The notes below the pieces were generated by a model. That model had not been told where the DNA came from, did not search any database, and saw nothing but the letters and a program-made list of their open reading frames with translations. The translations under genes and the position numbers were made by a program. 64,000 nucleotides of DNA from Muribaculaceae bacterium (GTDB lineage: Bacteria; Bacteroidota; Bacteroidia; Bacteroidales; Muribaculaceae), in NCBI GenBank assembly GCA_022508985.1, contig JAFLUA010000004.1, forward strand, positions 1-64,000, in the 5' to 3' direction. Positions 3 through 4,167 of the stretch are shown in pieces. How positions within the stretch are numbered: position 1 is the first letter of the stretch; each line of letters starts with the position of its first letter.

Positions 3-419
3 GATCCCTCGATTGCGGTAGCAGCGATGGGTGCATCGCCCCGAAGTTTGGAACTTGACCTGCGAACTTTCGGATTCATTTTCGAATGTATGTGCATTCG
101 TGATTTGAAAGTGTACTCTCAATCATTAGGAGGCAAAGTTTCCTATTACCGAGACCGTTATGGGTTGGAGTCGGATATTGTTCTGCACCTTGAAGATGGT
201 CGTTATGCCCTGATAGAGTGCAAACTGGGTAGCAGAGATATCGAAGATGGCGCAAAACACCTGCTGGAAATTCAGCGATTGATACGGCAGAAAAACGAGA
301 CCGAGAAGCAGGTTCCGTTGCGTGAGCCGGATTTGATGATAGTCATAACAGGCGGCGAGTTCGCCTACACCCGTGAAGACGGTGTAAAGGTGATTCCGTT
401 GGGGTGTCTGAAAGACTAA
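3..419 (+). CDS. C-terminal part of a DUF4143-type AAA ATPase (5' end outside window)
   Basis: Frame is open from the window edge (DPSIAVAAMGASPRSLELDLRTFGFIFECMCIRDLKVYSQ...IECKLG), typical of the DUF4143 C-terminal domain. Confidence 0.75.
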   Translation, partial: DPSIAVAAMGASPRSLELDLRTFGFIFECMCIRDLKVYSQSLGGKVSYYRDRYGLESDIVLHLEDGRYALIECKLGSRDIEDGAKHLLEIQRLIRQKNETEKQVPLREPDLMIVITGGEFAYTREDGVKVIPLGCLKD

Positions 420-1214: not shown

Positions 1215-2381
1215 TTAGCGGTTGCCTTTGGCTCGATTATGAGTTTTACAGAGCATTTCGCAGTTGTCAAGGGTTGTAGTCCCTCCTCGACTCCAAGCCG
1301 TCACATGGTCGGCATCCATCTCTGCGAGAGTATAAATTTTAGTGCGGTTATTGTTGGTTCCCGAAGCACAAACGGGGCAATTTGAAACACCTTCGGCTTG
1401 CGCTTTTTCTGTCTGATTAGCATAGGCGGCACGTTTTGTGCGGTCATCGAATAGACGCACATCCAAAAGCTCAGGGCGTTGTTCTCCTCCAAGAAGATAT
1501 TCATAAATGTTTTTGGCGTTGCGCACATATTCGTCAGCCAAAAGTTCTTTTGCTCGTTGGTTCAGTTCAGTCATGTTGTATGGCTTGGAATGATATTCTT
1601 CGTAGAGTCTTCCCCATTCAAGACCTTTCATTTTGTCGGTCATGTCAAACAATCCCGATACCCAACCTATAACCGCATCAAAATAAGATTGCAGTTCGCT
1701 GATGTTGGTGTCGTGACGGTGTTGACTCATGTACCCCTCGATTGTTAACCCATTGGAAGCACTTATCCATTCGAGCGCACGTTCTAAGTAATCCTGACGG
1801 CTTACTTCACCTTTAATGTAATGTGACCATTTTTGGATATTTGAGTTAAGCGAATTACTGAAAACAGCCTTTGCCGTCGTTACAAATGGACCACTATAAA
1901 TTGCATTGCGTAGTTCCTGTTCGTTGAGAGGCACTCCTGCAATGTTGATAGTCTTGAACCATTCTTTGATTTCTTCTTCCTCTCCCTCACAAATGTAGAT
2001 TGTGAGCGGAGTATTAAGAATACGTTGTTTCAACTCCTCGGGCAAACCGCTGAAAAATTCCTCACGACCATTGTATTGAATAGCAAGTTTACCTGTTATA
2101 AAACGTCCGAAGGATGTAATGCGTTGTTGACCATCAAGCACTTCAAATCGACCGTCCGGAGTCTTATTAAAATAAATAAGACCAAGAGGATACTTCTTTA
2201 ATAGCGAGTCGATGACGGCAACATCTTTCTTTCCGTCGTTGTAGATATAATGACGTTGATATTCAGGCTGAATAGTAAGTTTGCCGTTCAACCCATATAG
2301 CCCTTTGCCTTCATATTGATTATATACAAACCCTTCGGCTATATGGCCAACAGTCCATTCAGTATGTAGTTCTGTTTTCAT
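1215..2381 (-). CDS. DUF262 (DGQQR motif) + C-terminal HNH endonuclease, GmrSD/restriction-like
   Basis: 388 aa; N-terminal [10 protein letters not shown]...[13 protein letters not shown]-terminal CPVCA...[32 protein letters not shown]. Confidence 0.9.
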
Positions 2382-3514
2382 GATTTCTTACGGATTAATA
2401 TTCTCTGATATACCTTTTCTTTTATGCCATTAACTATTATTACACCGCTTGCATTGAGATCATAAGTGCCAGATTTCTTAAATTTATCATAATATGCAGC
2501 TCGACATTCGTCGGCATTGTATATTTTTGTTTTAAGATTATATAAATCTAAATTTTCACACATGCCCAGAATTTCAAATTGCTCGGGACAATATTTTTCT
2601 ATCCATGAAATTGGCACGCCCATTATACCTTCATAATCTGAAGGTATAGAATCAGTAAACGGAATCTCTAAAGCATCATAATTATCGTAATGATAATAAC
2701 CTATACATCTAATTTCTTTATGTTTACTAAAACGGATATTATCTTCTTGTGTCATTAATGAAAGTGGTTGATGTCTTCTTCCATGTTCAATGTTAGTAAT
2801 AAAAATTGAACCAACATTCTTCATATTTTTCCCATCTATAACTTTATCAACATCTTCATTATTTGCAGTTTGAAACCACATTCCTCCTGACCAGGATGTA
2901 AATCCTGACCACACTTGATTCCTCATAATATGAGGAAAAACCTCCTTATATGTTATACAGTTCTTGTTTGATATTATAATAAATAATTTTCTACCCTCCA
3001 AAAGCCAACCAAAGAACTCTTTAAATAATGAAAAAGGTGGGTTAGTAACAATGATATCGGCTTCATCCCGAAGTCGGGTTACTTCCTCACTTCGGAAATC
3101 TCCGTTTCCATCCAAATAGCCCCATTCAAGGTCATCGATATTTATGCGGCCGTCTCCGGTAACATCACGTTCGAGAACAAAAATCTTCCCATGGTTTTTT
3201 GATTTATCGGCATCAAATTGTGGCGACTCTTGTTCCCATTCGGAGAAAAGACCACCAAGAACCATCTTCTTACTTTCGGGCGCAAAACTTGTTGAAATCA
3301 ATTTCTTTATTCCGAGGTCATCAAATTTAGCAGCGAAATATTTGGTGAAATTACTCCATTCAGGATCATCACAAGGGAGCAGAATTGTTTTGCCACGAAA
3401 CACATCCGGATTATATTCCAGATATGCATTCATTTCCATTTCTATGTCATGAAATTGAGTATAAAACTCGTCGTTTTTTGCATTTTTAGCTGACTGGAGT
3501 TTACTGTTTGCCAT
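2378..3514 (-). CDS. Adenine-specific DNA methyltransferase, M.EcoRI family
   Basis: 378 aa; [62 protein letters not shown]...[22 protein letters not shown], as in M.EcoRI. Confidence 0.93.
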
Positions 3515-3856
3515 AGAGCCATCAATCCGACGGCTCCTGTCGGTAAGATAATTGGTTAAAGAAAAGCGAGGAGCCTTACCAGCTCATTCCGCTCTCTTGG
3601 TCGTAGGATACCATTGCAACCGGAAGAGCAATGGTAGAATATCCTCGCCAAGTATGTATACGCAACTACCCTTTCCAAGCAATACTTGGAAAGCGAGTAC
3701 ATAAACGTACTTTAGGAGCACTAACATTGCCATTTCCTTGGTTGCTTTTCAAAATTTCCTACGTTTTGAGAGCAAGGAAATAAAGCGTGTTACCGCCTTT
3801 CTTATGTTATTGAACTTTCGCCGTTTTCATTCTTGAAAACATGGTGGCGATGTTCT
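3515..3856 (-). ncRNA. Long structured 5' leader RNA (candidate cis-regulatory or independent ncRNA) upstream of the methyltransferase
   Basis: At least six hairpins including perfect 9-bp stems (3671-3679/3685-3693; 3732-3740/3773-3781), a compound stem (3596-3652) and GTTTTCA/TGAAAAC nested in TCGCC/GGCGA (3818-3850); consensus promoter just upstream. Confidence 0.7.
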
Positions 3857-3860
3857 TCTG

Positions 3861-3890
3861 CAAAGTTACGAATTATTGATGAGTCTACAA
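3861..3890 (-). promoter_or_regulatory. Bacteroidetes-type promoter TTG-N19-TAACTTTG
   Basis: Minus strand: TTG at 3890-3888, 19-nt spacer, TAACTTTG at 3868-3861. Confidence 0.75.
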
Positions 3891-4033: not shown

Positions 4034-4133
4034 AAAAGGGCAAGCTTACTACATCGCACCGCTACGACCCGACACCCTTGCTTCGGTCAAGACCTGGGGG
4101 ATTCACGGGGAGCTGGTCGTGTAGGACTTACCC
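4034..4133 (-). ncRNA. ffs: Signal recognition particle RNA (small bacterial type)
   Basis: Minus strand contains CCGTGAATCCCCCAGGTCTTGACCGAAGCAAGGGTGTCGGG, the SRP RNA apical core, with flanking complementary arms (ACGACC/GGTCGT; CTACA/TGTAG); boundaries approximate. Confidence 0.75.
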
Positions 4134-4137
4134 GTGG

Positions 4138-4167
4138 CAAAATTACAACCTTTTTAGCATACGGCAA
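4138..4167 (-). promoter_or_regulatory. Promoter of SRP RNA, TTG-N19-TAATTTTG
   Basis: Minus strand: TTG 4167-4165, 19-nt spacer, TAATTTTG 4145-4138. Confidence 0.7.

Follow-up and report, generated by a model that had tools for sequence, protein, structure and literature searches.

We analysed a stretch of 64,000 nucleotides (nt) from a Muribaculaceae bacterium (Bacteroidota, Bacteroidales; assembly GCA_022508985.1, contig JAFLUA010000004.1, positions 1 to 64,000 of the forward strand), which we call the window. Close to its start, a restriction–modification (R-M) locus is encoded on the minus strand: a gene for an EcoRI-type adenine methyltransferase, followed by a gene for a nuclease with GmrSD_N (DUF262) and HNH domains. 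Between the promoter box TAACTTTG and the ATG of the methylase gene lie about 340 non-coding nucleotides of the same strand, and this leader is the subject of our analysis. We find that it is one member of a widespread family of leader RNAs of about 270–350 nt in gut-type Bacteroidales. From the sequences, the family probably controls whether the downstream genes are expressed.

A sequence-only reading of the window had proposed a highly structured leader RNA of about 340 nt at this place. This proposal is borne out. The window leader has a minimum free energy (MFE) of -121.5 kcal/mol compared with -87.9 kcal/mol in dinucleotide shuffles (z = -6.56), none of the 100 shuffles was as good, and the covariation within the family is strong. 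The promoter claimed upstream is present as well, with the TAACTTTG box and a TTG at 3888–3890.

A leader family in the Bacteroidales

A BLASTn search with the leader in 399 genomes of the same family returned a core of about 250 nt in about 27 genomes at 67–80% identity. The core spans query positions 94–343, that is, about 3807–3558 of the window, and its loci are almost always apart from the window's methylase. The aligned copies start right after a TAnnTTTG box and have blocks in common, for example GAACCCCGCGATGCGTGGTGCCTC, GAAAGGCGTTTAC, GCATATACATACTTCGCGGGG and TTCTACCATTGC. We built the covariance model R1 from 21 copies with a structure drawn by hand from their alignment. R1, whose E-values are rough, detected a copy in 338 of the 399 genomes (E <= 0.01) and in 42 of 248 genomes from a sample spanning the order (E <= 0.001). 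The window's own genome carries 11 copies. As no copy was found in 249 other genomes of the phylum sample (E <= 1e-4), false positives appear to be rare. The numbers of copies per genome are lower bounds, because only the best few candidates were scored in the family searches and R1 favours the R-M subclass of the leaders. One copy of this subclass gave no BLASTn match in plasmid and phage collections. Nor was the exact conserved pattern found in viral contigs, and there is thus no sign of phage carriage, although the pattern is a strict one.

Fold of the leader and its junction with the gene

The members of the family are built alike: the TAnnTTTG promoter is followed by the hairpins P1 and P2, a long arm in which C, B, A and P3 are nested helices and the tip is variable, the terminator-like hairpin T, the small hairpin H and the start codon. 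Table 1 gives these parts for the window.

Table 1. Parts of the leader and the genes behind it, in window coordinates
Feature	Position	Strand	Remarks
TTG at the -33 position	3888–3890	(-)	from sequence
-7 promoter box TAACTTTG	3861..3868	(-)	Bacteroidota TAnnTTTG type, from sequence
Leader RNA core	3558..3859	(-)	full-length match to R1, 210.2 bits, E 2.7e-46; score not independent, the window copy being 1 of the 21 sequences behind the model
P1 domain GAACATCGCC..GGCGAAAGTTC	3812..3855	(-)	inner hairpin GTTTTCAAGAATGAAAAC at 3823–3840
P2 hairpin AAAGGCG..CGCTTT	3782..3800	(-)	most conserved hairpin; CG/GC pairs in 97–98 of 99 copies
D strands TTTCCTTG / CAAGGAAA	3733..3780	(-)	conserved in sequence in 99 copies, few compensated changes
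Helix C, outer long arm	3591..3773	(-)	GCTCTC (3768–3773) with GAGAGC (3591–3596)
Helix B, long arm	3602..3763	(-)	CGTAGGA (3757–3763) with TCCTACG (3602–3608)
Helix A, long arm	3616..3745	(-)	GCAACC (3740–3745) with GGTTGC (3616–3621)
P3 arm	3628..3731	(-)	GGCAATGTTAG with TTCTACCATTGC, then GTACGTTTATG (3700–3710) with CGTATACATAC (3652–3662)
Variable tip hairpin of P3 (CTTTCCAAG)	3671–3693	(-)	
T, terminator-like hairpin	3558..3592	(-)	GCGGAATGAGC..GGCTCCTCGC (3566–3592), then TTTTCTTT (3558–3565)
H, start-codon-proximal hairpin	3527..3543	(-)	CCGAC AGGAGCC GTCGG; loop at 3532–3538
GGCTC adjoining the ATG	3516..3520	(-)	possible second partner of the H loop, from sequence
First gene, EcoRI-type adenine methyltransferase (ATG at 3514)	2378..3514	(-)	PF13651, E 6.8e-112; PADLOC type II methyltransferase (MTase)
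Second gene, GmrSD_N (DUF262) + HNH nuclease	1215..2381	(-)	PADLOC type II restriction endonuclease (REase)

Support for the fold comes from two alignments. A2 was made with MAFFT and not fitted to the structure. In A2, 90.6% of the cells are paired versus 40–46% when the partner strand is slid by 1–3 columns, and 90 cells are changed on both sides of a pair versus 27 in shuffles. In A3, 99 copies aligned with the model, double changes are seen in 68 of the 72 pairs and in 1292 cells versus 332 in shuffles, with no shuffle among 500 reaching the observed value; these counts lean towards the structure as A3 was fitted to it, which does not apply to A2. The helices of the long arm are paired in 98% (C), 97.5% (B) and 97.2% (A) of the cells of the 99 copies, each with double changes in 7 of 7 pairs. 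The pairs of the P1 helix are altered on both sides as well, and the compensatory changes within the family include G-U pairs. Helix B is even exchanged as a whole block together with its partner: CGTAGGA/TCCTACG, CCTGAGA/TCTCAGG, CTACCAC/GTGGTAG, CGACCAA/TTGGTCG and ATTTGGCC/GGCCAAAT.

The comparison sorts the hairpins which the sequence-only reading had listed. Its nested TCGCC...GGCGA hairpin is P1 of the conserved fold and its CTTTCCAAG hairpin (3671–3693) is the tip. The short stem AGTAC/GTACT (3696–3711), however, is not a conserved pair, as the homologues pair those strands over long distances in A, B, C and P3. The compound stem at 3596–3652 is not conserved either: the unconstrained MFE fold of the window alone contains A, B and C unaided, and forcing the compound stem costs 4 kcal/mol. 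The stem at 3732–3781, formed by the D strands, is kept in sequence by the homologues but barely covaries. With few compensated changes across the 99 copies, we do not regard the D helix as proven. The D strands may take part in a pseudoknot or in an alternative pairing.

The P1 loop of several copies (L035, L048, L054, L055) contains one and the same inserted hairpin of about 30 nt (GGCTTGCCGCTTGCGCAGCAAG-like), of which L035 has a longer form. It is possibly a small repeat element.

In 87 of the 99 copies, TAnnTTTG lies between -30 and +14 relative to the start of the model, versus 3.8 expected from shuffles, and at least 8 T within 16 nt are found at the end of T in 90 of 99. The paralogues in the window's own genome have strong intrinsic terminators, for example CGTGGGAGGAGCAAT..GGCTCTCACGTTTTTTTT, with U-runs stronger than that of the window copy. 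An open reading frame (ORF) on the same strand starts at most 260 nt downstream in 94 of 99 copies, mostly 40–68 nt after T; in the window this distance is 43 nt. Between T and the start codon stands H, the stem of which varies while its loop is complementary to the 3′ arm of T. In the window the loop AGGAGCC matches the arm GGCTCCT at 7 of 7 positions. We scored hairpins with an arm-complementary loop, comparing the true cis pairs with swapped partners and with shuffled sequence. The H–T pairing stands out family-wide, with z = 6.6 over swapped partners and z = 15 over shuffled sequence, and likewise, with z = 5.7, in the 36 copies that lack the common GGCTC arm. Matched changes in these include AAGCACTCA/TGGGTGCTT (L154), CAGACTCCCG/CGGGAGTCTG (L184), TGAAGCTCC/GGAGTTTCA (L052) and CCGCTC/GAGCGG (L188). 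Together with the H loop, the GGCTC next to the window's ATG could form an H-type pseudoknot in the R-M subclass. The window copy has all marks of the family, namely the TAACTTTG box, TTTTCTTT, AGGAGCC/GGCTCCT and a nearby start codon. Promoter box, T/H pairing and a close start codon on the same strand make up the anatomy of a cis leader.

Two further features of the window are worth recording. Directly upstream of the leader promoter is a Bacteroidales small signal recognition particle RNA (RF04183, 108.5 bits; 4034–4140, minus strand). At 27–419 (plus strand) there is an ORF of 130 amino acids that looks truncated; it corresponds to the C-terminal DUF4143 portion of an ATPase (PF13635) and to the PADLOC candidate PDC-S01.

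Genes behind the leaders and other leader types

The 36 best copies, with more than 180 bits, head mostly defence genes: at least 24 of the 36 first genes are of defence type. Among them are 18 PLD/SNF2 helicases (PADLOC HKD+Snf2), 4 type III methylases, the EcoRI-type methylase of the window and 1 ZorA-like gene, and they are often trailed by type III mod and res genes. In most R-M loci the leader adjoins the helicase gene and not the methylase gene. The other 57 first genes include few defence genes and code for BspA-type leucine-rich repeat proteins, DUF6567 lipoproteins, proteins with a type IX secretion system (T9SS) tail, vWA and Ig-like proteins and many more. The paralogues in the window's own genome lie ahead of secreted, PEGA, BspA, vWA and LytTR genes. 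We therefore regard the family as general; one subclass within it is biased to defence genes, and the window copy is a member of that subclass.

Some single loci deserve mention. One copy (L179) precedes a ZorA/ZorB-like gene pair of the Zorya defence type. Two leaders of the defence subclass, L072:951-1205 and L074:4371-4625, from two species of one genus, stand ahead of a small lipoprotein gene (MKKQTSFIAT..) and not of a defence gene. In the window's own genome, the copies L139 and L140 stand before a vWA gene with a tubulin-like gene behind it, and before a LytTR gene with FHA and caspase-like genes behind it.

No constant partner protein, as would be found with retrons or toxin–antitoxin RNAs, accompanies the leader RNA, the first genes being unrelated. 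The suggestion that the leader is an RNA partner of the R-M enzymes is not supported, for the same RNA precedes proteins which have nothing in common. An association restricted to R-M genes is not seen either: beyond the defence subclass, the majority of the copies stand before lipoprotein, BspA, vWA and other genes.

No strong R1 copy precedes any of the gathered methylase homologues. The only other methylase with an R1 leader is L052, also of the EcoRI type, the copy of which is diverged (87 bits, E 4.5e-18) and has the same short form of P1 as the window. About half of the methylase relatives have structured leaders of about 290–345 nt of two other kinds, among them the closest relative, L005 (72% identity). 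The statement that ordinary R-M leaders are short is consequently wrong for this methylase family.

We modelled the two other kinds as R2 and R3, searched 35 genomes with both models and determined the adjacency to methylase genes by comparing coordinates. The matches lie almost only directly before methylase genes of one genus related to that of the window. For R2, 18 of the 19 matches abut a PF13651 methylase with 31–61% identity to the window methylase. For R3, 7 strong matches abut a PF13651 methylase, and weaker ones lie ahead of a type III mod gene and a Dam-like gene. R2 covaries, with 90 double-changed cells versus 29 in shuffles. R1, R2 and R3 agree in their layout and all have the motif GACAT downstream of P1. 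Neither R2- nor R3-type leaders have a match in Rfam.

Leaders of the types R2 and R3 were seen directly ahead of EcoRI-type methylases, mostly in one genus, at L002, L005, L008, L011, L013, L016, L019 and L020, and further at L021, L025, L028, L029, L030, L032 and L033. The R2 copies L202–L220 carry a near-invariant inverted repeat GATTGATAG..CTATCAATC at the leader end, which stops just a few bases short of the ATG of the methylase gene. As it is conserved by sequence more than by compensation, this repeat may be a DNA operator, for instance for autorepression. The R3 leaders (L005, L008, L011, L013, L016, L020, L021, L025, L028) have the segments ACTTGCAGG, CCTGCAAGTACCTT and AAGGTGCTTGCAGG, and the middle one, CCTGCAAGTACCTT, can pair with either neighbour, like a two-state switch.

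Proposed mechanism and known systems

With moderate confidence we suggest that the leader is a cis-acting attenuator in which the 3′ arm of T is common to the terminator and to the start-codon hairpin. Transcription would start at the TAnnTTTG promoter and the domain P1–P2–(C-B-A-P3) would fold. By default, T would stop most transcripts, which yields an RNA of about 300 nt. Folding of the domain, or something bound to it, could weaken T such that the RNA polymerase reads through. Then the 3′ arm of T might switch partner to the loop of H, right ahead of the AUG, and set the access of the ribosome. The operon would be held low until a signal arrives which is common to the whole family, be it a metabolite, a protein, a trans RNA or the state of elongation. 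The covarying pieces are read directly from the sequences; we infer from them termination at T, its modulation by the domain or a factor, and the control of translation by T and H.

Several points weigh against the attenuator, in addition to the lean of the A3 counts. The U-run of the window copy (TTTTCTTT) is imperfect. With a mean z of -0.6, H by itself shows no unusual stability, and as an independently stable hairpin it was rejected on this value. Since H is transcribed after T, it cannot itself prevent termination and acts only in the read-through RNA. For the anti-terminator there is only a candidate, D versus C/B/A, and D barely covaries. Finally, the genes behind the leaders have no obvious common signal.

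The strongest rival, in our view unlikely, is a constitutive translation-initiation element (standby or similar to an internal ribosome entry site). Here the leader and the kissing of H and T would recruit or position the ribosome, and T would be mainly structural. The phylum makes little use of Shine–Dalgarno pairing. Unrelated genes have their start codons at a near-constant distance from the leader, and the covarying H–T pairing lies directly upstream of the AUG; both would suit such an element, and for tisB of E. coli a pseudoknot is reported to be required for standby translation (PMC7708055). Yet T and its U-run are kept in 90 of 99 copies, as would be a terminator, and most genes of these genomes have no such leader. 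The remaining RNA-based readings fit worse. Less likely again is an independent trans-acting RNA of about 300 nt which ends at T and has the genes behind it as chance neighbours, or acts on other mRNAs via H-like loops. It would account for the own promoter and the terminator-like end, and cross-pairing is conceivable as the T arm complements the H loop and many copies have an identical arm and loop; however, the start codon follows on the same strand in 94 of 99 copies, mostly at 40–68 nt, and H and T match better in cis than between copies.

A riboregulator that times the methylase and the nuclease was the proposal of the sequence-only reading. Riboregulator remains the best class, but the restriction to R-M fails as unrelated genes stand behind the homologues. 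A device delaying or balancing methylase and nuclease could draw on the subclass above 180 bits at defence operons and on the dedicated leaders of two other types before EcoRI-type methylases in a related genus. We nevertheless consider it improbable and reject an R-M-specific RNA: the family at large heads lipoproteins, BspA, vWA and T9SS proteins, 11 copies are present in one genome, most R-M loci have the leader before the helicase gene, and the gathered methylase homologues lack it except for the diverged L052. That the leader is a DNA element (mobile repeat, recombination site or cruciform) and not an RNA is hardly credible. There are indeed many dispersed copies, and the same short hairpin is inserted in several P1 loops. 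But the orientation between promoter and start codon is fixed, the compensatory changes include G-U pairs, and copies at different places have diverged, unlike after recent transposition; on these grounds a mobile DNA repeat was rejected.

It is conceivable, though we propose this tentatively, that the leaders form a genome-wide RNA-controlled regulon. Some ten or more paralogous leaders of about 300 nt per genome would sense one common signal or factor. They would thereby release defence operons as well as surface or secreted proteins, and the covarying match of T arm and H loop would give specificity to subclasses. A structured RNA class which occurs in about 85% of the genomes sampled from one Bacteroidales family, at about a dozen copies per genome, and which Rfam lacks would be one of the larger leader RNAs still uncharacterised. 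Through it, the control of defence systems and that of surface proteins would be tied together at the level of RNA, in a phylum whose RNA-based control is poorly understood, and what the leaders sense becomes directly testable by reporter fusions. It also cautions that a leader beside an R-M gene need not be part of the R-M system.

Rfam 15 has no match for the window leader and no credible match, at E up to 1, for nine loci of other copies. In the literature we found no description of the family; supplementary motif lists and preprints were outside this search, so that an earlier unnamed listing is possible. By its kind the element appears to be a cis-regulatory leader RNA and, as a class, it appears to be new with respect to size, range, start-codon geometry and the T-arm/H-loop pairing. 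The large unlabelled list of candidate RNAs from the human microbiome (Fremin and Bhatt 2021, PMC8040213), obtained by comparative genomics, could contain fragments of the leader; the main text names no association with R-M, helicase or methylase genes, and the supplementary list was outside our comparison. Like Bacteroidales-1, Bacteroides-1 and other motifs described by Weinberg et al. 2010 (PMC2864571), the leader is a structured RNA restricted to Bacteroidota, but those motifs which have Rfam models (e.g. RF01693, RF01694) match none of the copies tested.

Three systems resemble the leader in its putative function. EAR, the epsC motif (RF01735) of processive antitermination, is reported to have antitermination activity (PMC2864571) and is likewise a structured RNA early in the transcript that may act on the RNA polymerase. 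It belongs to exopolysaccharide operons of Bacillales, whereas the leader has an internal terminator-like hairpin and is followed by unrelated single genes; RF01735 matches neither the window leader nor the other copies tested. The standby leader of tisB (PMC7708055) shares a structured leader and a pseudoknot thought to govern ribosome access to one mRNA, but concerns a single E. coli toxin gene and, as far as that account describes it, neither a leader family before unrelated genes nor a terminator-like hairpin at the junction. Attenuators of the riboswitch type with a terminator as expression platform also have a promoter, a large conserved structured domain, a terminator-like hairpin and the regulated gene close by, and one RNA class of theirs serves many unrelated genes. 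Judged from its conservation, the leader family joins a conserved structured domain to a putative expression platform, as metabolite riboswitches do. It differs from these attenuators in having no Rfam match or known ligand, in its size of about 300 nt and in the extra hairpin after the terminator, which is covariantly paired to the terminator arm.
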